A program made the position numbers and the translations under genes. Shown piece by piece: positions 10,031 to 36,021 of a stretch of 64,000 bases of DNA. How positions within the stretch are numbered: the first letter of the stretch is position 1; each line of letters opens with the position of its first letter. The notes beneath the pieces were generated by a model, which did no database searches, was not told where the DNA came from, and worked only from the letters and a program-made list of their open reading frames with translations. This DNA is from Phreatobacter stygius (lineage in GTDB: Bacteria; Pseudomonadota; Alphaproteobacteria; Rhizobiales; Phreatobacteraceae), in the NCBI RefSeq assembly GCF_005144885.1, contig NZ_CP039690.1, forward strand, positions 4,849,001 through 4,913,000. Reading direction: 5' to 3'.

Positions 10031-10891
10031 ATGTTCGATATTCGCCAATCCAGGATCTCTGACGACCCCTTGGCCAACCTTTGGCCGGACCATCCGGCCG
10101 GCCCTTCGGCCGATCACCTGGCCCGGCTGATCGCCGCCACACCGGCCGATTTCGCCCTCTATTTCGACGTCGACGGCACGCTCATCGATATTGCCGAAAC
10201 GCCGGAACAGGTTACGGCGCCTGCCGATCTCGCCGGCGACCTCGCCGCCCTGCAACGCCGGCTCGGCGGCGCCGTGGCGGTGGTCACCGGCCGGCGCCTC
10301 GCCGAGGTCGAGGCCATCCTGGCCCCGATCCGGGTCATCGGCTCGGGCATGCATGGCCTGGAGTTCCTCGGCGTCGCGGAAACCCGGCACCAAGCCGCAT
10401 CCGCGGGCGCCGTCGGACCGGAAGCGTGGGGCACGCTGCTGCCGCGCTCATTGGTCGACGGCGTGGTCAGGCTGGCCGCCAGCATCCCGGGTCTCAGGTT
10501 GGAACAGAAGGGGCCTATCCTGACCGTCCATTATCGCGAGATACCGAGCGTCGGCGCCCGGGTCGAGGCTGCCCTGGCGGTTCTGCTGGCCGATCACGGT
10601 GACGGCTACCACCTGAAAACCGGCCGGGCCGTGGTCGAGCTGATCCCCAATGGCACGTCCAAAGGCACCGCGATCGCCCGCATCATGGCGACTGCCCCTT
10701 TTGCCGGCCGCCGCCCCATCATGATCGGCGACGATCACGCCGACGAAGACGCTTTCGCGGTGGCGCGCGCCGCCGGCGGTTTCGGCCTGACGGTCGCCGG
10801 CGAACATTTCAACCGAGGTGACGAACCGTTCCGTGGCGCCGCCCATGTGCGCTCCTGGATCGCCGGCCTCAACGCGGGGCTTGCCCAATGA
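10031..10891 (+). CDS. otsB: Trehalose-6-phosphate phosphatase
   Basis: Dephosphorylates trehalose 6-phosphate to trehalose. This 286-residue HAD enzyme has the nucleophile motif YFDVDGTLIDIAE near residue 45 and the acidic motif GDDHADEDAF near residue 237, both diagnostic for OtsB. The frame is open further upstream to 9809, but the ATG at 10031 starts a normal-length protein and the upstream extension has no family similarity. It overlaps the GH15 gene by 4 bp (ATGA), so the two are co-translated. OtsA is encoded 1.9 kb downstream. Confidence 0.92.
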   Translation: MFDIRQSRISDDPLANLWPDHPAGPSADHLARLIAATPADFALYFDVDGTLIDIAETPEQVTAPADLAGDLAALQRRLGGAVAVVTGRRLAEVEAILAPIRVIGSGMHGLEFLGVAETRHQAASAGAVGPEAWGTLLPRSLVDGVVRLAASIPGLRLEQKGPILTVHYREIPSVGARVEAALAVLLADHGDGYHLKTGRAVVELIPNGTSKGTAIARIMATAPFAGRRPIMIGDDHADEDAFAVARAAGGFGLTVAGEHFNRGDEPFRGAAHVRSWIAGLNAGLAQ

Positions 10892-22020: not shown

Positions 22021-24636
22021 ATGCCGAGATATCTCGCCCGCTATTGGGGCAAGGCGCGACCGGTCGAAGGAGCTGCGCCGTGGCATCCCCTCGCTTATCA
22101 CAGCCTCGATGTCGCGGCCGCGATGGGCGCCTTGCTGGACCTGCGCCCGCGCTGGCTCGTGGCGATCGCGGCGGCGTCGGATTTGCCTCAGCCGGAGGCG
22201 CGCCGCCGGCTGATCCTTGCCGCGGCCTTGCACGACCTCGGCAAGTTCGCCGAGAATTTTCAACAGAAGGTTCCTGCTCTGCAGCAGGAACTCATGCCCG
22301 GCGCCTTCGCGGCTGATGATGGGCGTGGCCACGGCGAGATGGGCGCCGTCCTCTGGTCCGAGTTGAACGACCGGCGCTTCACCGTGCTCAGGCGCTGGAT
22401 GGCGGCATCCTTCGCGCATCATGGCGCCCCGGTCGCGGAGTCGGCAGGGACGCGCAACGCCATCTCAAGCGCGGCGCGGGCGGATGCCATGGCCTTCATT
22501 GAGGCGATCGCGACATTGATCGGCGTACCCGGCGAACAGCGGGCAGGCAATCTCGCCGAGACCTGGCGTGTCGCCGGGTTGATGATCCTGGCCGATTGGA
22601 TCGGCTCGAACCAGCAATGGTTTGCCTATGAGCCGTCGAACCATGGGCTCGAAGCCTATTGGGCTCTGGCGCAAAGTCGGGCGAAGGCGGCGGTGTCGGA
22701 AGCGCGTCTCGAGGAGGCGGCCAGCGCGGTGCATGTCGATCTCACCACGCTGCTCGGCAGGGATGCCCTGGCCTCGCCGTTGCAGGCCTGGGCCGAGGGG
22801 CAAGGCCCCGCAGCGGGGCCACTGCTCTATCTCATCGAGGACCTCACTGGTTCCGGCAAGACCGAGGCTGCACTGATCCTTGCCCATCGGCTAATGCAGG
22901 CGGGCATGGCCGAAGGGCTCTATTGGGCCTTGCCCAGCATGGCGACCGCCAATGGCCTTCATGCCCGGTTGGACCAGGTCTATCGTAAGCTCTTCGCGTT
23001 GGATGGTGCCGTGCCCTCGCTGGTCCTGGCGCATAGTGCGCGCGACCTGAACGACGGCTTCCAGGCTTCGATCGGCCGCGGCCAGATCCAGTCCTATGGC
23101 GGCGAGGGGGCCGAGGCGATCAGCGCAGAAGCGGCCTGTGCCGCTTTCATCGCCGACGATCGCCGCAAGACCTTCCTGGCACAGGTCGGCGTCGGAACGC
23201 TCGACCAGGCGCTGCTCGCCGTCCTGCCGAGCCGCCACCAGTCGCTCAGGCTCGCCGCCCTGTCGCGACGCGTCCTGGTGGTCGACGAGGCTCATAGCTA
23301 CGACCCCTACATGGCGGTCGGGTTGGAACGGCTGCTCAAGTTCCACCATGCGCTCGGCGGCTCGGCGATCGTCCTGTCGGCGACGCTGACATTGGCGCAG
23401 CGCGAAAGGCTCGCGGCGATCTACGGCACAGTGCAAAAAGCCGCAGCTCGAAGCATGGCTTTTCCGCTCGTGACCCAGACCGGCGCGACCGGCCCGATCG
23501 AAATCCCTCTCGATGCCGCTCGCGGTACGCGCCGCGATCTTCCTTTCCGCCGCTTCGACTCGCCGGAACAGGCCATGACGGCTCTGGTCGAGGCGGCGCG
23601 CGGCGGCGCCTGTGGCGTCTATATCAGGAACACCGTGAAGGACGCCGTGGCAGCCTTCGAGCACTTGCGGGCCGCGGTCGGCGCGGGCGTCACGGTCGAG
23701 CTCTTCCACGCACGTTTCACTCTTGGTGATCGGATGGCCCGGGAGAGCGAAGCGCTTGCCCGCTTCGGGCGGGACAGCCATCCCGAAGAGCGGCGCGGGC
23801 GACTATTGGTCGCCACGCAGGTCGTCGAGCAGAGCCTGGACCTCGACTTCGATTATCTCGTTACCGACCTCTGCCCGATGGATCTGTTGATCCAGCGAGC
23901 GGGTCGGCTGCAGCGTCATGGCCATCGTCCCTCGCGCCCGCCTCCGGAACTTTGGATTGTCGGGCCCGACGCGACCGAGGATGCAGGCGTCGACTGGTAT
24001 GACGTTCCGTTTCCGTATGCGCGTTTTGTCTATCCCGACGCCGGCCAGCTCTGGCGCACCATGCGCGTCCTGACCGACAAGGGCGGCTTGACGCTGGCGA
24101 GCGGTTCGCCGCGCGACCTGATCGAGCCGGTTTTCGGGGCGAAAGCCGTTGCCCATCCTCCCGGGCTCGACGACAGCGCATTGCGGGCCGAGGCCAAACG
24201 GCAGGCCGAGCGCGCCATTGGCCACCTCAACGTGCTCAAGCTCGACGGTTTCGACCGCCAAGCCGGCGCCTGGGACAGCGACGACAAGACGCCGACCCGT
24301 CTTGGTGAGGAAACCCGTATGTTGCGCCTCGCCCGTTGGGCCAATGGCTCTTTGTTGCCTTGGTGCGAGGCTGAAACGGAAGGACGCGCCTGGCGCCTCT
24401 CGGAGATCGCGGTGCGGGCGAGGCGAGTCGCCGAGACCGAGGCGCCGGATCTCGCCGCAGCCGCGGCAATCAAGGCCGCTCAGCAAGGCTGGCCCGGTCG
24501 CTTCGATCCGCCGCCCATCCTGGCCTTGACACCGGGGGCGTTGCCCGGGGTCTGGGAGGGCGCATGGAAGGACGCGCGGGGGCAGCGGCAAGCGGTGCGC
24601 TATTCCCAGGCGACCGGATTGGAGACCATGGCCTAA
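22021..24636 (+). CDS. cas3: CRISPR-associated helicase/nuclease Cas3 (type I-E)
   Basis: Degrades target DNA after Cascade forms an R-loop. This 871-residue protein joins an HD nuclease (His22, His27, His71-Asp72 in LHDLGKFAENF, HHGAPV further on) to an SF2 helicase: Walker A GSGKTEA near residue 277, DEAH box near 422, motif III SATLT, motif VI QRAGRLQRHGH near 625. The ATG at 22021 has GGAAG five bases upstream and begins with MPRYLARYWGKA, typical of the family; earlier starts add an atypical tail. It is separated from the Cascade genes by array 1 and a toxin-antitoxin pair. Confidence 0.95.
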   Translation: MPRYLARYWGKARPVEGAAPWHPLAYHSLDVAAAMGALLDLRPRWLVAIAAASDLPQPEARRRLILAAALHDLGKFAENFQQKVPALQQELMPGAFAADDGRGHGEMGAVLWSELNDRRFTVLRRWMAASFAHHGAPVAESAGTRNAISSAARADAMAFIEAIATLIGVPGEQRAGNLAETWRVAGLMILADWIGSNQQWFAYEPSNHGLEAYWALAQSRAKAAVSEARLEEAASAVHVDLTTLLGRDALASPLQAWAEGQGPAAGPLLYLIEDLTGSGKTEAALILAHRLMQAGMAEGLYWALPSMATANGLHARLDQVYRKLFALDGAVPSLVLAHSARDLNDGFQASIGRGQIQSYGGEGAEAISAEAACAAFIADDRRKTFLAQVGVGTLDQALLAVLPSRHQSLRLAALSRRVLVVDEAHSYDPYMAVGLERLLKFHHALGGSAIVLSATLTLAQRERLAAIYGTVQKAAARSMAFPLVTQTGATGPIEIPLDAARGTRRDLPFRRFDSPEQAMTALVEAARGGACGVYIRNTVKDAVAAFEHLRAAVGAGVTVELFHARFTLGDRMARESEALARFGRDSHPEERRGRLLVATQVVEQSLDLDFDYLVTDLCPMDLLIQRAGRLQRHGHRPSRPPPELWIVGPDATEDAGVDWYDVPFPYARFVYPDAGQLWRTMRVLTDKGGLTLASGSPRDLIEPVFGAKAVAHPPGLDDSALRAEAKRQAERAIGHLNVLKLDGFDRQAGAWDSDDKTPTRLGEETRMLRLARWANGSLLPWCEAETEGRAWRLSEIAVRARRVAETEAPDLAAAAAIKAAQQGWPGRFDPPPILALTPGALPGVWEGAWKDARGQRQAVRYSQATGLETMA

Positions 24637-24779
24637 CGAGTATCCCACGCAGATCGAGCACATGCGCGCCGCGCCTGTCGCTCGGGAAGGCCATTGTGCG
24701 CCCCTGGACCCCCGGAAAAAATCGGTAGCTTTTTCGACATTGCAAATCATGCAATGAATCAAATGGTTATCGGGGATGA
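24637..24779 (+). promoter_or_regulatory. Leader of CRISPR array 1
   Basis: AT-rich leader directly before the first repeat. Positions 24730-24763 are identical over 34 nt to the leader of array 2 and include the inverted repeat CATTGCA/TGCAATG. AATCAAATGGTTA (24757-24769) matches the IHF consensus WATCAANNNNTTR exactly and ends 10 nt before repeat 1. In E. coli type I-E, IHF bends the leader to guide Cas1-Cas2 integration, so this array looks competent for adaptation and is transcribed rightward. Confidence 0.85.
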
Positions 24780-26172
24780 GTGTGCCCCGCCTGCGCGGGG
24801 ATGAACCGTCGATGGCGTCGCAGCCGAAGTCGTGCTCGAGGTGTGCCCCGCCTGCGCGGGGATGAACCGCAGGCCGTGGGGATGGCGTGATGGCCACCGA
24901 CGTGTGCCCCGCCTGCGCGGGGATGAACCGCTGTCGACGATGATCTCGCCATCGAGCAGTTCGTGTGCCCCGCCTGCGCGGGGATGAACCGGGCCTATGA
25001 GTTCGGCAAGATCCTGAAAATCTGTGTGCCCCGCCTGCGCGGGGATGAACCGGCGCTGACGCTGAAGGATGGGCCCGTCACAGCGTGTGCCCCGGCTGCG
25101 CGGGGATGAACCGTCGCCTGGCCCGGGCATCTCAGCCACCGTATTGTGTGCCCCGCCTGCGCGGGGATGAACCGCTTGCGTTTTTCCCGCGCCACCTGTT
25201 TCCGGAGTGTGCCCCGCCTGCGCGGGGATGAACCGCCCTCCAAAACGCCACGATGAACCCGCCGGGAGTGTGCCCCGCCTGCGCGGGGATGAACCGAACA
25301 CATCGACATTTTCGCCGGCGCTGCAGCGGTGTGCCCCGCGTGCGCGGGGATGAACCGGCCGGAGTTCCTGTCGGGTCTGTTCAACGCGGGTGTGCCCCGC
25401 CTGCGCGGGGATGAACCGGCGGTCAGGAGCGTCACCGAATTGAACCGCCAGTGTGCCCCGCCTGCGCGGGGATGAACCGACGGCTAATGTCGCAGTCGGG
25501 CGATATGCGGTGTGTGTCCCGCCTGCGCGGGGATGAACCGGCAGCAGGCCAGCCAGAGCGAGGCCGCGGCCGGTTCGTGATGTGTGTGCCCCGCCTGCGC
25601 GGGGATGAACCGCGCATGGTGATCGTCACGGCCACGCTCGAAATGTGTGCCCCGCCTGCGCGCCGATGAACCGTGTCAACCCGGTCACGAGCCTCGATAC
25701 CGGGGGTGTGCCCCGCCTGCGCGGGGATGAACCGACGGCTAATGTCGCAGTCGGGCGATATGCGGTGTGTGTCCCGCCTGCGCGGGGATGAACCGGCAGC
25801 AGGCCAGCCAGAGCGAGGCCGCGGCCGGTTCGTGATGTGTGTGCCCCGCCTGCGCGGGGATGAACCGCGCATGGTGATCGTCACGGCCACGCTCGAAATG
25901 TGTGCCCCGCCTGCGCGCCGATGAACCGTGTCAACCCGGTCACGAGCCTCGATACCGGGGGTGTGCCCCGCCTGCGCGGGGATGAACCGCGATCCTGGCC
26001 GGCCTCTATTCGAACCAGGGCGTGTGCCCCGCCTGCGCGGGGATGAACCGATCGAGATCTTGCGTGAGGCCGTCGACCACATGTGTGCCCCGCCTGCGCG
26101 GGGATGAACCGGCGTTGATATGGGGGACGCTTTGGAAGGGAAGGTGTGCCCCGCCTAGGCGGGGATGCTGCG
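24780..26172 (+). CRISPR. CRISPR array 1, type I-E, 23 repeats and 22 spacers
   Basis: Repeats are 29 nt, begin GTGTGCCCC and end GGATGAACCG with a CCCCGC/GCGGGG stem, as in type I-E. Starts: 24780 then every 61 nt to 25512, then 25584, 25645, 25706, 25767, 25839, 25900, 25961, 26022, 26083, 26144. Spacers are 32 nt except two of 43 nt (25541-25583 and 25796-25838). Units 25451-25705 are tandemly repeated at 25706-25960. Variant repeats: 25085, 25329 (one base), 25512 and 25767 (C to T), 25645 and 25900 (GG to CC). The last repeat (26144) is degenerate, marking the leader-distal end. Confidence 0.98.
25451..25960 (+). repeat. 255-bp tandem duplication inside array 1
   Basis: Bases 25451-25705 and 25706-25960 are the same four repeat-spacer units, including the 43-nt spacer and the two distinctive mutated repeats. 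The duplication therefore arose after those mutations, by recombination between repeats, and not by new acquisition. Eighteen spacers in the array are unique. Confidence 0.95.
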
Positions 26173-26206
26173 TCCTTGTTGGTAATCCGATCGGAGTGCC
26201 GAAATC

Positions 26207-26235
26207 TTGCAGCTCTTCCTGATACGTACTATTAT
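26207..26235 (+). promoter_or_regulatory. Sigma-70 promoter of the prlF-yhaV pair
   Basis: TTGCAG (26207-26212), a 17-nt spacer and TATTAT (26230-26235) make a near-consensus promoter 25 bp before the antitoxin ATG. It lies immediately downstream of array 1, so the toxin-antitoxin pair has its own promoter. Confidence 0.6.
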
Positions 26236-26245
26236 ACGTATCAGG
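26218..26245. promoter_or_regulatory. Operator palindrome of the toxin-antitoxin pair
   Basis: CCTGATACGTA and TACGTATCAGG form a perfect 11-bp inverted repeat separated by six bases. It covers the spacer and -10 box of the promoter. PrlF-YhaV complexes are known to repress their own promoter, and this is the expected place for the operator. Confidence 0.75.
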
Positions 26246-26259
26246 AAATGGAGACTCCC

Positions 26260-26625
26260 ATGACACGCGCCGAGTTCAAGGGATCGATCACGACCACGGG
26301 CCGTTCCGAAGCCTTGCGGCTCGATAAGGCTTTGTTCAAGGCTCATCCCGAATTCAAACAGCGGGCGAAGATCCGCGCCCACGTTCTGGGGCCGGGCAGC
26401 CTGCTGGTGACGCTGGATGCCGGCGAGGCGGAGCTGGCGCCGGCGGATGCGGTGGAGCATGATCCGGTTGTTGCGGCCTACCTGTCCTTCCTCGAACGCG
26501 ACATGCGCGAACATCCTGAACGCCTGCAGCCCTTCACCGAGGCCGATATCGCGCGCATTCAGGCGCTGACCAGGGATGTCGAGGTTTCCGATGACGATGT
26601 CATTCCCGACGATGTGACCTTGTGA
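26260..26625 (+). CDS. prlF: Type II antitoxin, PrlF (SohA) family
   Basis: A 121-residue antitoxin. The N-terminus (FKGSITTTGRSEALRLDKALFK) fits the AbrB/SpoVT-like swapped-hairpin DNA-binding fold of PrlF, and the rest should hold the toxin. An SD (TGGAG) lies 7 bp upstream. It overlaps the toxin start by 4 bp (GTGA), the usual antitoxin-first order. It sits between CRISPR array 1 and the Cascade operon on the same strand, so it might stabilise the CRISPR locus by addiction. Confidence 0.85.
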   Translation: MTRAEFKGSITTTGRSEALRLDKALFKAHPEFKQRAKIRAHVLGPGSLLVTLDAGEAELAPADAVEHDPVVAAYLSFLERDMREHPERLQPFTEADIARIQALTRDVEVSDDDVIPDDVTL

Positions 26626-27104
26626 CGCCGCCGGCCGAGCCCCTTGCCGAACGCCACGGCTGGAAGCTCTATCGTGCCTCGGCCTTTGCCGAGACCTTCG
26701 ACAGGTTGGAGGCCGAGGTTGCGCGCCTCGCGGCGGAGCGTCCGTCGGACGTCGCGTCGCATCCGAAGGCGAAATTGCTCGCGCGCATCCGCGACCTGAT
26801 CTTCGACGAAATCCCGCGCGATCCGAACGCCCATGTCTACGGCCTCGGCAAGACGCTCGGTGCCGCGCACCGTCATTGGCGTCGGGCGAAGTTCCTGCAA
26901 CGTTTCAGGCTGTTCTTTCGTTTCGACAGCGCCAGCCGCATCATCATCTATGCCTGGGTGAACGACGAAAACACCTTGCGCAAAGCCGGATCGCGCACCG
27001 ACCCCTATGCCGTCTTCGCGCGCCGCCTGGATGACGGCGATCCGCCGGATGATTGGGGGGAATTGCTGGCGAACGCCGCGGAAGTGGGGCCTCGTAAGAC
27101 TTAG
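26622..27104 (+). CDS. yhaV: Type II toxin, YhaV family ribonuclease
   Basis: A 160-residue RelE-superfamily mRNA interferase. It matches YhaV closely in remembered signature segments: HGWKLY, ARIRDLIFDEIPRDP, AAHRHWRRAKFLQRFRLFFR, IIIYAWVNDENTLRKAGS and DPYAVFARRLDDGDPPDDW. The conserved RLFFRF and YAWVNDE residues of the active centre are intact, so it is probably functional. Translation starts at GTG 26622, coupled to prlF. The cas8e gene begins 137 bp downstream, and read-through from the TA promoter into the cas operon is possible. Confidence 0.9.
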   Translation: MTPPAEPLAERHGWKLYRASAFAETFDRLEAEVARLAAERPSDVASHPKAKLLARIRDLIFDEIPRDPNAHVYGLGKTLGAAHRHWRRAKFLQRFRLFFRFDSASRIIIYAWVNDENTLRKAGSRTDPYAVFARRLDDGDPPDDWGELLANAAEVGPRKT

Positions 27105-27186
27105 CGAAGGGGGAACGAGCGAGGCAGGTGCCATTGGCCCTTTCCTGGTCGCGTACAAGCCCGATTACTGTCCAAGCACTTTGCGT

Positions 27187-27213
27187 GGGTTGAACGGTCG
27201 TTAGAATCAACCC
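27187..27213. promoter_or_regulatory. Inverted repeat upstream of cas8e
   Basis: GGGTTGA and TCAACCC form a perfect 7-bp inverted repeat separated by 13 bp, 29 bp before the cas8e start. It overlaps a TAGAAT hexamer (27202-27207), so it could be an operator for the Cascade operon. No regulator is identified. Confidence 0.35.
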
Positions 27214-27241
27214 ATAGTTGATCCACGGGCTTGGGGGAGCA

Positions 27242-28870
27242 ATGCCACTCAATCTGATCTCAGATGCTTGGCTTGAAGTCAGGCGAGCCTCGGGCCGCCG
27301 CTCCGTCGTCGCCCCCGGCGCCGTCACGGACCGGTTTGACAACGACCCGATCGTCGCCCTCGATTTTCCCCGCGCCGACTGGAACGCGGCGCTGACCGAG
27401 TTTCTCATCGGCCTGACCTGGCTCGCCATGGCGCCGCGCGACGAGGTGGAATGGGCCGATCACTTCCGCACGCCGCCCTCGCCCGACAGGCTGCAGGCGG
27501 CTTTCGCGCCCTTCGCCTCGGCCTTCGACTTCGACGGCGAGGGCCCGCGCGCCTTCCAGGATTTCGATCGGCTCGAAGCGGCCGAGATGAAGCCGCTGAG
27601 TGGCTTGCTGATCGATGCGCCAGGCGAGAACACGCTGAAGAATAATGCCGATCTCTTCGTCAAACGTGGCGGGGCAGGCGGCCTGAGCTTGCCTTATGCG
27701 GCGGCGGCATTGATCACCCTGCAGACCTATGCGCCGTCCGGCGGCGCCGGACATCGCACGTCGCTGCGCGGTGGCGGCCCGCTGACCACCTTGCTCGCGC
27801 CGGCCCGCAAGAGCCTCGCCGTCGCCACCTTGTGGGATCGCATCTGGGCCAATGTGCCGAATGCCGATCCGGAGGCCGGTCTGACGGATCTGGCGCGGAT
27901 CTTCCCGTGGCTCAGTCCGACTGCAACCTCGACCAAAGGGGAGATCGTCGCGCCGGAGGATCGGCACCCGGCGCTCGCTTTCTTCGCCTGCCCGCGCCGC
28001 ATCCGGCTTGACTTCGCCGGGGAGGTGGTGTGCGCCTTCGGCGGCAGGACTGGCCGGGGCGCCGTTGGCTATCGCACGCTCAATTACGGCGCCAATTATG
28101 TTTCCTGGGAACATCCGCTGTCGCGTTATCGGAACGACAAGAAGGCCGGAAAACTGCCGTTGCATCCTCACGTTGGCCCATCCGGCTATGGCGACTGGAT
28201 CGCCTGGTGGGGACTGAAGGATGAGAGCAATCAACCGGCCAAACCGTTCCGTCTTTGGAGCTTTCGACGCAATGAAGTCGCGGATCTGCTCACGCCCGGC
28301 GACAGCGCTGAGGCTTTCGGATTTGTGACCGATAATGCGAAGGCCATTCAATGGCTCGAGGCGCGCTTTCCCTGGGTGGCGATCCACGCCGATGCCTATC
28401 GCGAATTGCGCCCTTTGCTCGGCGACGCGATCCGCGCGGCGGATGCGGCGGCACGCGCCTTGCGCTACACCGTCAAGATCGCCTTTTTCGGGCAGCCGCG
28501 CGAGGGCTCCTATCGCCTGCCTAAAACCTTGCCCTTGGATGCATTGCCGGAGCCGGCCGAGCGGCTCTGGCGTGAAACGCAGAGCGACTTCGAAACCCTG
28601 CTGGGCAAGCTGATCCAGCGCTTCAGGGATGGTCCCGAAGCGACCATCGACCTGAAGCAGGATTGGCGCAGGACCCTGCGCCGTCACGCGCTTTTCCTGT
28701 TCGACGACACGGTCGACATCGAGGGAATGACCGATGCCAATCCGCGTCGCCTGTTATCGGCGCGGCGGCAGCTCGATTTCGCCTTTTCGGACCATGCCAA
28801 GGCCGAAGTCCGCAGGGCGCTCAATCTAAGCCCCGCACCCAAGGCGCCGAAAGATAAGGAGGCGGCCTGA
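27242..28870 (+). CDS. cas8e: Cascade large subunit Cas8e (Cse1/CasA)
   Basis: Recognises the PAM and recruits Cas3. This 542-residue protein begins MPLNLISDAWLEVRRASG, the usual Cse1 opening, and carries the conserved segment GAGHRTSLRGGGPLTTLL near residue 185. The ATG at 27242 follows GGGGGAG at 27233-27239 and is preferred to the ATG at 27218. Its stop overlaps the next ATG by one base. First gene of the cas8e-cas11-cas7-cas5-cas6e-cas1-cas2 operon. Confidence 0.95.
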   Translation: MPLNLISDAWLEVRRASGRRSVVAPGAVTDRFDNDPIVALDFPRADWNAALTEFLIGLTWLAMAPRDEVEWADHFRTPPSPDRLQAAFAPFASAFDFDGEGPRAFQDFDRLEAAEMKPLSGLLIDAPGENTLKNNADLFVKRGGAGGLSLPYAAAALITLQTYAPSGGAGHRTSLRGGGPLTTLLAPARKSLAVATLWDRIWANVPNADPEAGLTDLARIFPWLSPTATSTKGEIVAPEDRHPALAFFACPRRIRLDFAGEVVCAFGGRTGRGAVGYRTLNYGANYVSWEHPLSRYRNDKKAGKLPLHPHVGPSGYGDWIAWWGLKDESNQPAKPFRLWSFRRNEVADLLTPGDSAEAFGFVTDNAKAIQWLEARFPWVAIHADAYRELRPLLGDAIRAADAAARALRYTVKIAFFGQPREGSYRLPKTLPLDALPEPAERLWRETQSDFETLLGKLIQRFRDGPEATIDLKQDWRRTLRRHALFLFDDTVDIEGMTDANPRRLLSARRQLDFAFSDHAKAEVRRALNLSPAPKAPKDKEAA

Positions 28871-29457
28871 TGCGCGACTACCAGCGCCAATCCATCGAGA
28901 GGCATTTTCGCGAATGGTGGGAAGGCCTGACCGATGCCGGAAACGACGGCCGCAAGGCGGATCGGGCGGCGCTCGCCCGTTTGCGCCGCATTGATTTGGC
29001 GCCCTTTGGAGAGAAGCGGGAGCCGGATCTGACCTTGGCCTTCAGCGAAGCAGCCTTCCGCAATCTCTACCGTCGCATCCGCGGCATTGGCGAATTGTCG
29101 GAAGACCGCGAGCCGGACCTCGCCACCGCCGCGGTCACGCTCGCCCACATCAGGCAGGATGCCGCCAGGCGCAAGACGGCAGCCATGCTTGGCGGGCCGG
29201 ACGATGATGCGCGCAAGATGAAGGAGGTGCGTTTCCTGCGGCTGATGCGGGTTTCGACCGCGGGCGATCTGTTCAACGAGGCACGCCGGCTCTCGGCGCT
29301 GCTCGACCGGCAAGCGCCGGTCGGCGAACTCGGCGCCTCGCTGCTGCTCTGGCGTCATGTGCCGCGCGTGCGCCGCGACTGGGCGCGCGCCTATTACGGG
29401 CTCGACGTCGAGGGCCTGGAACCGACCGAAACCGATATCGCCCAAGCCGGAGCCTGA
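28870..29457 (+). CDS. cas11: Cascade small subunit Cas11 (Cse2/CasB)
   Basis: A 195-residue helical, basic protein, the usual Cse2 size. The segment REWWEGLTDAGNDGRKADRAALARLRR near the N-terminus and RLMRVSTAGDLFNEARRLSALLDR later are family-like. Two copies line the Cascade belly and stabilise the displaced strand. It starts within the cas8e stop (TGATG) and is 6 bp from cas7e. Confidence 0.92.
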   Translation: MRDYQRQSIERHFREWWEGLTDAGNDGRKADRAALARLRRIDLAPFGEKREPDLTLAFSEAAFRNLYRRIRGIGELSEDREPDLATAAVTLAHIRQDAARRKTAAMLGGPDDDARKMKEVRFLRLMRVSTAGDLFNEARRLSALLDRQAPVGELGASLLLWRHVPRVRRDWARAYYGLDVEGLEPTETDIAQAGA

Positions 29458-29463
29458 CCCTCC

Positions 29464-30531
29464 ATGACCCGCTTCCTACAATTGCACTTGCTCACGCCCT
29501 ATGCCGCCGCCAATCTCAACCGCGACGACACCGGCCGGCCAAAGACGCTCAATTTCGGCGGCGCCGAACGGCTCAGGATTTCCTCGCAGAGCCTCAAGCG
29601 CGCCTTCCGCATCTCGGATGTGTTCATTCAAGGGCTGCCCGGTGCGCTTGGCAAGCGCTCGCAGCATTTCGCCCACGAACTGGTCGCTGCGCTCATCGCG
29701 CGGGGGCTGAGCGAGGAGGAAGCCAGGGCGCGCGCCGAAGCGGTGATCAAGCACGACAAACTCGGCAAGGTGAAGAAGGGGCAGGCCGCGACCGAACAGC
29801 TCGTTCATCTCGGCCCGGACGAACTCGCGACCATCGCCGGGCTGGCCGACCGGCTGGCCGCTTCGGCTGACCTCAACGAGAAGAAGGTTCTGGTGCTGAA
29901 GGACAAGCCGCGGGCCGCCGACATCGCCATGTTCGGCCGCATGCTGGCCGACAATCCCGGCTTCAATGTCGAGGCGGCCGTCCAGGTGGCCCATGCTTTC
30001 ACCACCCACCGCGCCACCGTCGAGGACGATTACTACACCGCCGTCGACGACATCAAGAATGCCGATGACGAGGCCGATCGCGGTGCCGGTTTCATCGGCG
30101 TGCAGGAATTCGGCGCGGGGCTCTTTTATCTCTATATCTGTGTCAATGCCGATCTGCTGGTCGACAACCTCTCGGGTGACACGGCGCTCGCCGCCGACGC
30201 GGTGGAGGCTTTGATCCGGGCCGCTGCGACCGTCAGTCCCAGTGGCAAGCAGAACGCTTTCGCCAGCCGGGCCAAGGCGCGCTACGCCCTGCTCGAAATC
30301 GGCAAGGAGACGCCACGCAGCCTGGCCTCGGCCTTCCAGCATGCGGTTGGCGGCCGCTCCGGCGAGGACGACCATTTCGAGGCGTCGTACCGGCGGCTGA
30401 CCGATCTGCGCAACGGCTTTGCTGCGGCTTATGGCGAAGCGTCGCAAGGCACCGAAATGAAGGTGGCGGCGGATGGCAGCGGCAGTCTGGCCGATCTGGT
30501 CGGAGCCGGCCGAGCGGCGGTCGGGGCCTGA
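29464..30531 (+). CDS. cas7: Cascade backbone Cas7e (Cse4/CasC)
   Basis: Forms the six-copy backbone along the crRNA. This 355-residue RAMP protein opens MTRFLQLHLLTPYAAANLNRDD and contains GGAERLRISSQSLKRAFR, the classic Cse4 start, and DDYYTAVDDIKNADDEADRGAGFIG in the thumb region. It is followed 4 bp later by cas5e. Confidence 0.95.
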   Translation: MTRFLQLHLLTPYAAANLNRDDTGRPKTLNFGGAERLRISSQSLKRAFRISDVFIQGLPGALGKRSQHFAHELVAALIARGLSEEEARARAEAVIKHDKLGKVKKGQAATEQLVHLGPDELATIAGLADRLAASADLNEKKVLVLKDKPRAADIAMFGRMLADNPGFNVEAAVQVAHAFTTHRATVEDDYYTAVDDIKNADDEADRGAGFIGVQEFGAGLFYLYICVNADLLVDNLSGDTALAADAVEALIRAAATVSPSGKQNAFASRAKARYALLEIGKETPRSLASAFQHAVGGRSGEDDHFEASYRRLTDLRNGFAAAYGEASQGTEMKVAADGSGSLADLVGAGRAAVGA

Positions 30532-30535
30532 AACC

Positions 30536-31324
30536 ATGAGTGAGCGCGACTTCCTGGTCTTTCGCCTGGCCGGGCCGATGGCCGCCTTCGGCGACATTGC
30601 CGTGGGGGAGCGGCGCGGCATCTGGGATGCGCCGTCGAAATCGGCCATTCTCGGCCTTGTCGCCGGTGCGCTCGGCCTCAAGCGCGACGACACGGCAGCG
30701 CATTTAGCCCTGGAAACCGGCCTCGGCTTTGCCGTGCGGGTCGATGTGGCTGGACGGCCGCTGCGCGATTATCACACGGCGCAGGCGCCAAGTGCGCGGC
30801 GCAACGGCCAGTGGCGCACCCGCCAGGAAGAGCTCGCCGATGGGGACGAACTCAACACCGTGCTGTCGGAGCGCATCTACCGGCTGGAGGCCGCCGCCAC
30901 TGTCGCGCTTTGGAACAAGGGCAGCGAGACGCCTTCACTCGATGCGCTGGCGGAAGCACTGAAACAGCCACGTTTCACCCCCTATATCGGGCGCAAGGCC
31001 TGTCCTTTGGGCCGGCCGCCTCGGCCGCACATCGTGGTGGCGAGCGGTCTGCAACCGGCATTCGCTGCCTATGACGCGCTGGAAGCCGATGCCGACGCCA
31101 AGCTCCGCTTCCCGTGGTTCGCAACGCGCCAGGTCGAGCGGCAGCGCATCATCTGGTTCGAATGGGACGCCGGCCTCGCCGACGAGGAGCGGCAAGCGGC
31201 CGAGGGTGGCCGCATTCGCCAGCGCCGCGACGCGGTGCGCGACCGCGGTCGCTGGCAGTTTTCCGATCGCCGTGAAGGCAGCTTGACCTTCGCGCCGCCA
31301 CCAGCCGGGGAGGCCGCCGCATGA
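30536..31324 (+). CDS. cas5: Cascade subunit Cas5e (CasD)
   Basis: Caps the 5' handle of the crRNA. The 262-residue RAMP protein begins MSERDFLVFRLAGPMAAFGD with GIWDAPSKSAILGLVAGALGL next, the standard Cas5e N-terminus. The reading frame extends upstream into cas7, but the ATG at 30536 gives the family start. The stop overlaps the cas6e ATG by 4 bp. Confidence 0.93.
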   Translation: MSERDFLVFRLAGPMAAFGDIAVGERRGIWDAPSKSAILGLVAGALGLKRDDTAAHLALETGLGFAVRVDVAGRPLRDYHTAQAPSARRNGQWRTRQEELADGDELNTVLSERIYRLEAAATVALWNKGSETPSLDALAEALKQPRFTPYIGRKACPLGRPPRPHIVVASGLQPAFAAYDALEADADAKLRFPWFATRQVERQRIIWFEWDAGLADEERQAAEGGRIRQRRDAVRDRGRWQFSDRREGSLTFAPPPAGEAAA

Positions 31325-32004
31325 GCTTCCTGACCCTAGCCGAATTGCGTCGTGATACGCCCCAGGCGCGCGCCTATGCCCGGCTCTTGCTCGACAGCAG
31401 CATCGAGGACAGCGCCCACCGGCTGGTCTGGCTGTTGTTCGGCGACAAACCCGATGCCGAACGCGACTTCCTGTTCCGCGAGGCCGAACCAGGTCGCTTT
31501 CTGGTCGTCTCGCAACGCCAGCCGGCGGGCGAGGAAGCCATCTGGAGCCTGAAGAGCCGCCCCTATCAACCGGCCCCGACAAAGGGGCGACGCTACGGCT
31601 TCTCATTGCGCGCCAATCCCACGGTCAGCCTGTCCCAGCCGGGGCGGGCGCGCAGCCTGGTTCGCGACGTGCTGCTACATGCCAAGAAACAGGCCGGGCG
31701 CCCGCTGACACCGGAGGAACGGGAGGCCGCGGCGCTCGCCTGGCTGACCGCGCGCGGCGAGCGCATGGGCGTGACCTTCGACCCTATGCTCTGCCAGGCG
31801 AAGCGCTACGACCTGCTCAAGGTTTCCCGCAAGAAGGAGAAAGGAAAGGGCTCGGCACATCCGGCCGAATTCACCGTGGTCGATTTCGAGGGGGTGCTGA
31901 CCGTCGATGACCCCGCGGCTCTGGAGACGACCCTGCGCTCCGGCATCGGCAAGGGACGCGCCTATGGGCTCGGGCTCATGCTGCTCAGGCCGCTCGGCGA
32001 CTGA
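31321..32004 (+). CDS. cas6e: CRISPR RNA endoribonuclease Cas6e (CasE)
   Basis: Cuts the pre-crRNA at the base of the repeat hairpin and stays bound to the 3' handle. The 227-residue double-RAMP protein has the N-terminal SAHRLVWLLFGD, where His33 is the candidate catalytic residue, and the C-terminal glycine-rich loop GIGKGRAYGLGLMLL. The strong CCCCGC/GCGGGG stem of the repeats is its expected substrate. Confidence 0.93.
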   Translation: MSFLTLAELRRDTPQARAYARLLLDSSIEDSAHRLVWLLFGDKPDAERDFLFREAEPGRFLVVSQRQPAGEEAIWSLKSRPYQPAPTKGRRYGFSLRANPTVSLSQPGRARSLVRDVLLHAKKQAGRPLTPEEREAAALAWLTARGERMGVTFDPMLCQAKRYDLLKVSRKKEKGKGSAHPAEFTVVDFEGVLTVDDPAALETTLRSGIGKGRAYGLGLMLLRPLGD

Positions 32005-32010
32005 CGCGCC

Positions 32011-33244
<1,234 letters not shown>

Positions 33245-33369
33245 GGATCGGATCGCGGCCGCGTCCGCTCTCGATCGCGGGCCGAGGATACCCTTCAGAA
33301 CCCAGCGAAAATTCGGTGGTTTTTTCGACATTGCAAATCATGCAATGAATCAAACACTTGTTCGGATGA
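33245..33369 (+). promoter_or_regulatory. Leader of CRISPR array 2
   Basis: Positions 33321-33354 are identical over 34 nt to the array 1 leader, including the CATTGCA/TGCAATG inverted repeat. AATCAAACACTTG (33348-33360) matches the IHF consensus WATCAANNNNTTR exactly and ends 9 nt before repeat 1. Similarity is lost upstream of about 33300, so the functional leader is probably the last 60-70 bp. Confidence 0.85.
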
Positions 33370-36021
33370 GTGTGCCCCGCCTGCGCGGGGATGAACCGAC
33401 ACCGTGCTGACGGACGAACAGGTTGCCCTCGTGTGCCCCGCCTGCGCGGGGATGAACCTGCACCCGATGCTTTCCGAAGCGGGCGCCGGGAGTGTGCCCC
33501 GCCTGCGCGGGGATGAACCGGCGTCGACCACCACGTCGCTGCCGTCATGAACGTGTGCCCCGCCTGCGCGGGGATGAACCGCGGCGGGTTACGCGGGCAG
33601 CCGCCAAATCGTTGTGTGCCCCGCCTGCGCGGGGATGAACCGGGGTTGCAGCATGATCGTGGGCTTTTGCGGCCGTGTGCCCCGCCTGCGCGGGGATGAA
33701 CCGTCAGCGAACTGGTCGAATTTGGGCGTTTTCAAGTGTGCCCCGCCTGCGCGGGGATGAACCGGGCCTCCTGGGTCTGCTGCAGGGTGACGCCGAGTGT
33801 GCCCCGCCTGCGCGGGGATGAACCGGCCGGATCTCCGGCACACCCTGGCGCATCGAGGTGTGCCCCGCCTGCGCGGGGATGAACCGGCCAGCGACGGCAA
33901 ACACGGGAACCAGACCACGTGTGCCCCGCCTGCGCGGGGATGAACCGGTCCGCTTCGATCCCGATCCGGGCTACGTCGCGTGTGCCCCGCCTGCGCGGGG
34001 ATGAACCGAGATCGGTGGTGACGCGCCAGCGCTGTCTCATGTGTGCCCCGCCTGCGCGGGGATGAACCGATGGCGCTCAGCGTCGGCTGCATCGAAATCG
34101 TGTGTGCCCCGCCTGCGCGGGGATGAACCGACCGACCGCACGCCGCACTATTTCAGCGCGCCGTGTGCCCCGCCTGCGCGGGGATGAACCGCGGAGGCGT
34201 GACCATGGCGGACCCGATCAAGGGTGTGCCCCGCCTGCGCGGGGATGAACCGCACTACCTGGTCAGCCATGCCGACTATGGCGAGTGTGCCCCGCCTGCG
34301 CGGGGATGAACCGGTGTAGGGCCATGAGACGATATTGCGGTACCGGTGTGCCCCGCCTGCGCGGGGATGAACCGCAAGGCCGGATTGGCAGCTTCCCGTT
34401 CAACCCGTGTGCCCCGCCTGCGCGGGGATGAACCGTTTCCCGAGCCATCTTCGGACGTCTGAGATTGGTGTGCCCCGCCTGCGCGGGGATGAACCGCCGG
34501 AAACCGACGCCAAACTGCGCGAGGTTTCGTGTGCCCCGCCTGCGCGGGGATGAACCGTCGATTGATGTCTCGGCGGTAAGGGCGTCGAGGTGTGCCCCGC
34601 CTGCGCGGGGATGAACCGCTGTTCGGCTTCTCGCCATTGGATCACTACGCGTGTGCCCCGCCTGCGCGGGGATGAACCGATGACGAACACTTGCTCGCCG
34701 GTCAGCGCGGTGTGTGCCCCGCCTGCGCGGGGATGAACCGGTCCTGTCGCAGACGGCGAAAGACAACATCGAGTGTGCCCCGCCTGCGCGGGGATGAACC
34801 GATCCTCGAGCAGGTTGGCGAATCGCCTGCCGGGTGTGCCCCGCCTGCGCGGGGATGAACCGACGCAGGTGTGATCGAGCGGCAGCCCTGGCACGTGTGC
34901 CCCGCCTGCGCGGGGATGAACCGGGAGACGGGCACCCACTGGCCAACGGCCGAGGGTGTGCCCCGCCTGCGCGGGGATGAACCGCCGCAAATTGGGAGCG
35001 GCTGCTGTCGGGCCGCGTGTGCCCCGCCTGCGCGGGGATGAACCGCCCTCCAGGCCTTTGGCCAAGGGCCCGAGCACGTGTGCCCCGCCTGCGCGGGGAT
35101 GAACCGCATAACGGTGTCGCCGCCATGCTCTCGGTACAGTGTGCCCCGCCTGCGCGGGGATGAACCGGTCCAGGCGCCGACGGCAGCATCCGGACCCGGG
35201 TGTGCCCCGCCTGCGCGGGGATGAACCGGTACGAGCCGAGAGCATCCAGGCCGGCCGCGCGTGTGCCCCGCCTGCGCGGGGATGAACCGCGCTCGAAATG
35301 GGACGCCTGTCGCTTGCAATCGTGTGCCCCGCCTGCGCGGGGATGAACCGGTTCGCTGCGGCCGCTTTCTCGGCGAGTTTTTGTGTGCCCCGCCTGCGCG
35401 GGGATGAACCGAGCATCTAACGGCCGTCGATGGCGCTGTCATCGTGTGCCCCGCCTGCGCGGGGATGAACCGTATTCGGCAGGCTGTCAGAATATATCGC
35501 TGGCGTGTGCCCCGCCTGCGCGGGGATGAACCGCTGAGGCGGCAGGCTGGAGCCGGCCAGAGATCGTGTGCCCCGCCTGCGCGGGGATGAACCGGCCATT
35601 TCATGGCCCGAGGGACGGCGTGCGCTGTGTGCCCCGCCTGCGCGGGGATGAACCGGCGGCGACGCGCGACCTAATCAAGCTGGCCGGGTGTGCCCCGCCT
35701 GCGCGGGGATGAACCGGCCGCGGACCTGGTCCGCACTGGCTTCGGCGAGTGTGCCCCGCCTGCGCGGGGATGAACCGGACCCGCGCTATTCGACCGCCTC
35801 GCCGCAGTAGTGTGCCCCGCCTGCGCGGGGATGAACCGCCGCCGGCCCCACCGCGGCCTCCGCGCCCGGTGCGTGCCCCGCCTGCGCGGGGATGAACCGC
35901 GATCCGCGTTCGGCTCGCCGAGGACATCATCGTGTGCCCCGCCTGCGCGGGGATGAACCGACGGGTGAGCCTTGGCAGGCCGCGAAAACCCCGTGTGCCC
36001 CGCCTGCGCGTGGATGTCGGC
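33370..36021 (+). CRISPR. CRISPR array 2, type I-E, 44 repeats and 43 spacers
   Basis: The same 29-nt repeat as array 1, starting at 33370 and then every 61 nt without exception to 35993, so all 43 spacers are 32 nt. Small variants: the repeat at 33431 ends in T, the one at 35871 begins GCGTG, and the last one (35993-36021) loses the end of the stem and the GAACCG tail, marking the leader-distal end. I saw no spacer shared with array 1. Transcription is rightward, continuing the cas operon direction. Confidence 0.98.

Follow-up and report, generated by a model that had tools for sequence, protein, structure and literature searches.

A PrlF-YhaV toxin-antitoxin pair between cas3 and cas8e of a type I-E CRISPR-Cas locus in Phreatobacter stygius

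Toxin-antitoxin (TA) genes and type I CRISPR-Cas loci have been found side by side in several bacteria. At type I-E loci of Pectobacterium, RelE/ParE, HigB, PemK or HicAB genes are located downstream of cas2, between cas3 and cse1, or beside cas3, according to the sections of the report at hand (PMC6963963). In Citrobacter rodentium, the gap between cas3 and casA of the type I-E locus carries a CreTA element, which has been tested and for which the available part of the source proposes a function as guard of Cascade (PMC12055562). The guides of CreA and CreR, the latter described in section 3.2 of the review PMC12737573, have a characteristic signature, i.e., matches to the target at positions 1-5 and 7-11 (PMC8501985, in excerpt), and CreTA/CreR elements are described as hard to detect by similarity (PMC8501985, PMC10097628, both in excerpt). 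The YhaV and PrlF families are listed in PMC7251935, whose accessible part does not mention an arrangement within a CRISPR locus; a prior report elsewhere is possible.

Here, we describe a type I-E locus that carries a PrlF-YhaV pair, located in a stretch of 64,000 nucleotides of contig NZ_CP039690.1 of P. stygius, designated the window, and we compare it with type I-E loci of other genomes. The locus is complete (22021-36021), and its array 1 and cas8e are separated by the intact genes prlF and yhaV (26260-27104). All parts read rightward in the order cas3, array 1, prlF-yhaV, cas8e-cas11-cas7-cas5-cas6e-cas1-cas2, array 2. The features are as follows (cas genes and prlF assigned by Pfam/NCBIfam, yhaV by Pfam):

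22021..24636, + strand: cas3 (HD nuclease-helicase); the ORF is open from 21898, and the start at 22021 given in an earlier note on this DNA was kept
24707..24763, + strand: leader of array 1, 88% like leader 2
24780..26172, + strand: CRISPR array 1, 23 repeats of 29 nt, the terminal repeat (26144-26172) degenerate with 5 mismatches
26216..26247, no strand assigned: perfect 13-bp inverted repeat with a 6-nt loop, putative PrlF operator, containing ACGTA-N7-ACGTA
26260..26625, + strand: prlF, antitoxin
26622..27104, + strand: yhaV, toxin of the mRNA interferase family, GTG start, 4-nt overlap with prlF
27105..27241, + strand: interval of 137 bp between yhaV and cas8e, its last part conserved with the congener G279
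27242..28870, + strand: cas8e (cse1/casA), ATG at 27242
28870..29457, + strand: cas11 (cse2)
29464..30531, + strand: cas7
30536..31324, + strand: cas5
31321..32004, + strand: cas6e
32011..32961, + strand: cas1e
32942..33244, + strand: cas2e
33298..33354, + strand: leader of array 2, 88% like leader 1
33370..36021, + strand: CRISPR array 2, 44 repeats, the terminal repeat degenerate

The earlier note, made from the letters of the window, had given the type, gene order, strand and coordinates of the locus, the placement of a PrlF/YhaV pair between array and Cascade operon, and a distance of 137 bp between the TA genes and the cas operon; profile searches and ORF positions agree with it on each of these points. 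Matches were obtained for Cas3 HD (9.6e-41), Cse1 (5.3e-85), Cse2 (3.6e-12), Cas7 (CT1975; 5.3e-96), Cas5 (4.5e-35), Cas6e (2.4e-42), Cas1e (1.4e-113), and Cas2e (1.4e-36), and all ten genes of the locus, eight cas genes plus prlF and yhaV, have open frames. The ordered gene set from cas3 to cas2e, the 29-nt repeats and the spacers, 63 of 65 of which are 32 nt long in the two arrays, assign the locus to type I-E. Within array 1, several repeat-spacer units, among them the two 43-nt spacers, are duplicated in tandem (25444-25953; 255 bp, 99% alike).

The TA module begins 43 nt behind array 1, and both products exceed the respective Pfam cut-off (PrlF_antitoxin, 3.8e-13; Toxin_YhaV, 1.8e-53), which together with the 4-nt overlap of the genes identifies it as a member of the PrlF-YhaV modules. 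A perfect inverted repeat in front of TA genes is the usual appearance of a TA operator, and the one at 26216-26247 is likely the operator of PrlF. In the mechanism that we envisage, the labile PrlF would keep YhaV inactive and the PrlF-YhaV complex would shut its own promoter at this palindrome; once synthesis stops, be it by loss of the locus or by phage-induced shutdown of the host, PrlF would vanish and YhaV would cut mRNA, the net effect being a cost on loss of the stretch.

YhaV has a single match within the whole genome of 7.35 Mb. Its closest relatives found are encoded on plasmids, namely pTi6.2 of Rhizobium rhododendri (76% identity) and pXAUT01 of Xanthobacter autotrophicus Py2 (74%), out of 317 matching plasmid records; both are paired with an upstream gene, as judged by annotation or arrangement, and both plasmids also carry ACGTA-N7-ACGTA upstream of prlF in a comparison by eye, which indicates that control travels with the module. 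A further relative, L260 from another genome of the order, has 71% identity. The window copy keeps 29 of 32 near-invariant YhaV columns and has A19, T25, and G74 where H, Q, and R, respectively, predominate (34, 34, and 35 of 37 aligned sequences), and its activity appears uncertain owing to these three departures. Decay limited to the window copy was rejected as their explanation because L260 shares two of them, A19 and T25. A viral reservoir of YhaV, with two relatives at 46 and 50% identity, was also considered and set aside.

YhaV was encoded in 14 of the 397 genomes of the order sample and in 19 of the 385 of the class sample. Cse1 matches were present in 17 genomes of the order sample, and only the genome of the window has both. 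The earlier note had suggested a search for enrichment of prlF-yhaV near type I-E cas genes, and the outcome was negative: a type I-E cas gene was found near none of the 37 other YhaV copies (36 of which were re-found by tblastn, L279 not) within the surroundings fetched, several of which end at contig ends. Other CRISPR types near these copies were looked for by array detection alone, which gave a single candidate, an array-like repeat in L243 at a distance of about 8.6 kb from yhaV. On the count of 0/37, a CRISPR-specific PrlF-YhaV family was rejected, and YhaV does not recur beside cas genes as the toxin of a family dedicated to their addiction would.

A different picture emerged for TA modules as a class. 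Type I-E loci were taken from the order sample, a Cas1-alignment scan (80 kept of 573) and a phylum sample. Among the 114 loci compared, 96 had cas3 plus cas8e or cas7, from which 21 lacking a cas8e match were dropped; the resulting 75 loci, with cas3 and cas8e on the same strand, form together with the window a set of 76. The 94 ORFs of at least 60 aa in gaps of at least 150 bp included, as recognised contents, seven toxins (YhaV, two Gp49, two ParE, BrnT, and HigB), antitoxins, one DUF29 protein and one IS200-type transposase, and the TA-bearing gaps were those of the window, G279 (L037), L046, L121 (Stutzerimonas azotifigens), L129 (S. stutzeri), L176, and L180. For comparison, 3 kb on each side were searched, where 481 of 757 ORFs were kept (ORFs >300 aa or nested were dropped) and every one of these with a length of at most 150 aa was scanned, the flank matches of two sets being the best 25 of 28 and the best 25 of 43 Pfam families. 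Seven toxins in 27.0 kb of non-array gap stand against at least six modules in 169.9 kb of non-array flank. With flank modules counted among the matches listed, the ratio of the densities is 7.3 (P 0.0007) for the 76 loci, 6.6 (P 0.002) without the window, 5.9 (P 0.007) without window and congener, and 6.3 (P 0.0013) if at least seven flank modules are counted, where all P values assume independent loci, the loci being related by descent and the flanks differing in coding content.

Screening of 149 Enterobacteriaceae genomes gave 25 regions, 7 of them without cas3 or cas8e, and thus 18 further usable loci, whose gaps were judged by eye with Pfam applied to L224 alone; one of them, with MazF-MazE, is the eighth TA gap. 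In total, type II TA modules of six toxin families occupy 8 of 94 type I-E gaps, and near-duplicate cas8e pairs are absent among these 94 loci. In five of the eight TA-bearing gaps the TA genes are antisense to cas8e. The module of L046 follows directly behind the array and is absent in its congener L047. None of ten plasmid-borne type I-E loci has an annotated gene in the gap, as far as an incomplete gene table goes, which is not surprising at a rate of 8/94.

Three further arrangements were observed in the course of this survey. In L176 (9143-11983), one gap contains a HigB-HTH pair and an adjoining two-gene unit without Pfam/NCBIfam match, by eye a nucleotidyltransferase pair. In L175 (11653-12174), a DUF29 protein (1.3e-47) antisense to cas8e is the sole recognised gap gene. 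On plasmid p1-AD3 of Roseomonas mucosa, about 60 bp lie between the end of an annotated VapB-VapC pair (L288, 1391-2022) and the type I-E cas3 downstream of it.

Within the genus, type I-E is present in 2 of 12 genomes, those of the window and of G279. In G279, the stretch from array to cas8e spans 1.6 kb and consists of a gene for a Gp49-type toxin (2.4e-15), one for an HTH_37 antitoxin (1.6e-19), a yhaV fossil and about 0.7 kb before cas8e. The fossil comprises 86 bp with 84% identity to the 3' part of the window yhaV (E 2e-21) and indicates that yhaV was present in the common ancestor of both loci, or was exchanged between them, and later decayed in G279, where a different TA pair is now present. 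The earlier note had regarded absence of the pair from close relatives, along with a lack of enrichment near cas genes, as a sign of chance insertion; intact prlF-yhaV is indeed absent from G279, but a remnant of yhaV lies in the same gap, and this former presence together with the over-representation of TA modules argues for more than an insertion in one strain. The Gp49 frame of G279 lacks the first 10 profile positions, with matching residues upstream in another frame, which may indicate an inactive toxin or an error in the draft sequence. The cas genes of G279 are open from cas3 to cas1, as far as its contig reaches, despite the loss of yhaV, and PrlF-YhaV is therefore dispensable. A shared chromosomal site was rejected, since the upstream flank of G279 has no blastn match in the window; this flank has 46 weak matches elsewhere in its own genome and by appearance belongs to a paralogous gene family. 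Protein identity between window and L037 falls along the operon from Cas1 (98%, partial) via Cas6e (96%), Cas7 (91%), and Cas5 (87%) to Cas11 (82%), Cas3 (80%), and Cas8e (79%), a gradient that suggests recombination between the loci.

The two loci are conserved at 80 of 97 positions about 27204-27300, from the end of the interval into cas8e, so that conservation immediately before cas8e begins only about 38 bp 5' of the ATG. This, together with the common strand and the distance of 137 bp, would fit a transcriptional coupling in which prlF-yhaV transcripts extend into cas8e and stress that derepresses the TA genes raises Cascade. A search of the stretch from 24600 to 27400 revealed no terminator-like site on the + strand, and read-through into cas8e is thus possible. 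The antisense orientation in five of eight TA gaps means, however, that coupling cannot be the general reason for the arrangement, and we consider it improbable for the window as well.

The gap between cas3 and cas8e is also rich in CreA/CreR-like guides. A screen for pairs of sequences with identity at positions 1-5 and 7-11, in which one member had to follow a type I-E PAM, yielded 15 pairs with at least 4/7 further matches, compared to about 0.7 expected from shuffles keeping base composition only. The PAM was AAG in 13 of these pairs. Although the screen set no condition on repeat handles, such a handle (GGATGAACCG, GGATAAACCG or a close variant) stood in front of 10 of the 15 pairs, and this recovery suggests that the screen may aid the finding of CreTA/CreR elements. 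In a handle-first search, a guide with at least 9/10 core matches to a PAM-flanked target was found in 27 of 51 gaps >100 bp, compared to 0.38 such gaps per run with random guide positions. Guide and target lie on the + strand in the alphaproteobacterial cases examined and mostly on the - strand in others. Inspection by eye of several alphaproteobacterial loci showed, behind the target, a TTGACA-like box, then a hairpin, and finally a tiny ORF preceded by a strong ribosome-binding site; these ORFs are alike in G279 (MRWHRSITT) and in the Caulobacterales contig L073 (MRWRRSNII). In L045, L050, and L051, the guide target is followed by a strong ribosome-binding site and a small ORF that is conserved (residues e.g. 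ILSEEQVAEIKARHERRETPAQI) and has no Pfam match, a candidate protein toxin or regulator under control of a Cascade guide. A strict mutual exclusion of guides and TA modules was rejected, with guides in 4 of 8 TA gaps (weak in L129 and L180) versus 23 of 31 others of at least 250 bp (P 0.22).

The gap of G279 contains such an element as well (L037, 10101-10400), with two degenerate repeats flanking a 26-nt guide. The second repeat has 7/29 mismatches compared to a minimum of 10 among 200 shuffles. The target, located behind AAG at 10216, differs from the guide at positions 6 and 12 and agrees with it at the other 17 of the first 19, and is followed by a strong ribosome-binding site and the mini-ORF. 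Every sixth base is flipped out in Cascade. At the level of sequence, G279 thus has the hallmarks of CreTA for the promoter of the mini-ORF and not for that of its protein TA; the guide block has no match elsewhere in its own genome, in a weak search of small evidential value.

Guides being common at this position, with one in the congener and a tested example in the C. rodentium gap (PMC12055562, in part), the PrlF-YhaV pair might likewise be repressed by Cascade, a crRNA-like guide taking the complex to the prlF promoter and loss of Cascade freeing the toxin. However, when the 65 spacers and the pseudo-spacer that follows array 1 were compared with the TA promoter, no seed match next to a PAM was obtained, a weak test as shuffles with base composition kept average 1.3 hits and 56 of 200 also gave zero; the stretch 26173-27260 upstream of the TA genes and of cas8e likewise has none, versus 0.7 in base-composition shuffles, and repeat-like sites with up to 8 mismatches are absent outside the arrays of the window. 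A handle-like site within cas3 (24369), with a 10/10 core match to a target behind an ATG PAM (24566) that also lies inside cas3 and about 1.6 kb from prlF, was taken as chance. The window therefore has no combination of a degenerate ectopic repeat and a PAM-flanked target at the toxin promoter as in CreTA and CrePA, and its toxin is YhaV instead of the KilA-N protein of CrePA. As the spacer, wider-stretch and handle screens revealed no convincing guide, Cascade control of PrlF-YhaV was rejected and is in our view extremely improbable, and the pair is no obvious CreTA or CrePA.

With middling confidence, we favour the reading that PrlF-YhaV is a mobile, plasmid-type module, autonomous and self-repressed, which occupies the slot used elsewhere by CreTA and makes loss of the stretch costly. 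The function of an addiction module that keeps the cas genes, which the earlier note had put forward beside a fallback role in abortive infection, is a plausible hypothesis; it gains from the over-representation of TA modules in the gap and the former presence of yhaV in the congener, and it loses from the 0/37 copies beside type I-E, the lack of CreTA-like control found, the dispensability of the pair in G279 and the 0/10 plasmid loci. The activity of the toxin, its autorepression and stabilisation of the cas locus as the cause of persistence are what we infer, and the pair may persist via addiction, abortive infection or nothing of this kind.

The last of these would apply if the junction of cas3 and cas8e were simply the one break in a tight operon, in which small modules survive and decay as neutral passengers without any role in CRISPR immunity. 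The yhaV fossil and the incomplete Gp49 frame of G279, the lack of a CRISPR link of the YhaV family, the empty plasmid loci and the module of L046 that is missing from L047 keep this reading alive, and we regard it as a real if tentative possibility. It is at odds with the finding that recognised gap genes are mostly TA genes (seven loci versus one DUF29 protein and one IS200-type transposase) whereas flanking ORFs are of many kinds, and with a TA density 6-7 times that of the flanks, flank modules being counted among the matches listed.

Since TA modules are enriched in a gap that also hosts guards ruled by Cascade, a slot for addiction elements is a fair hypothesis. In a stronger form, which we consider unlikely, the gap would be a dedicated addiction slot in which Cascade-ruled CreTA and protein TA modules replace each other, the window relying on PrlF-YhaV and G279, with yhaV fossil, HigB-like pair and CreTA-like element side by side, standing midway. 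If the slot truly selects addiction elements, CRISPR-Cas loci would have two unrelated kinds of self-protection in one and the same place, and the persistence of costly immune loci would be easier to understand. As a practical rule, the cas3-cas8e gap of type I-E loci should be inspected for hidden toxins before cas genes are deleted.

Compared with described systems, the pair of the window shares with other PrlF-YhaV type II TA modules the two families, the gene overlap and the palindrome and differs from them by its divergent subfamily and its location in a CRISPR locus. CrePA resembles it in that a protein toxin is tied to a type I locus (PMC12737573, section 3.3), but CrePA has a KilA-N toxin repressed by Cascade and a CreA guide, neither of which was seen in the window. 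The type I-F CreTA of Acinetobacter, in the gap between cas3 and csy1, is likewise a guard between cas3 and cas8 but RNA-based (PMC10097628, in excerpt), and the CreTA of C. rodentium, as far as the available part of its description goes, occupies the same gap as the window pair and consists of a mini-ORF toxin and a crRNA-like antitoxin in contrast to a protein pair without guide. The closest parallel is provided by the TA pairs of Pectobacterium, which share gap, subtype and a variety of several toxin families with the loci surveyed here. The sections of that report at hand neither mention PrlF-YhaV nor test for enrichment, nor do they describe fossils or a connection with Cascade guides (PMC6963963). 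The window, with type II TA genes in the cas3-cse1 gap of its type I-E locus, fits the pattern seen in Pectobacterium.
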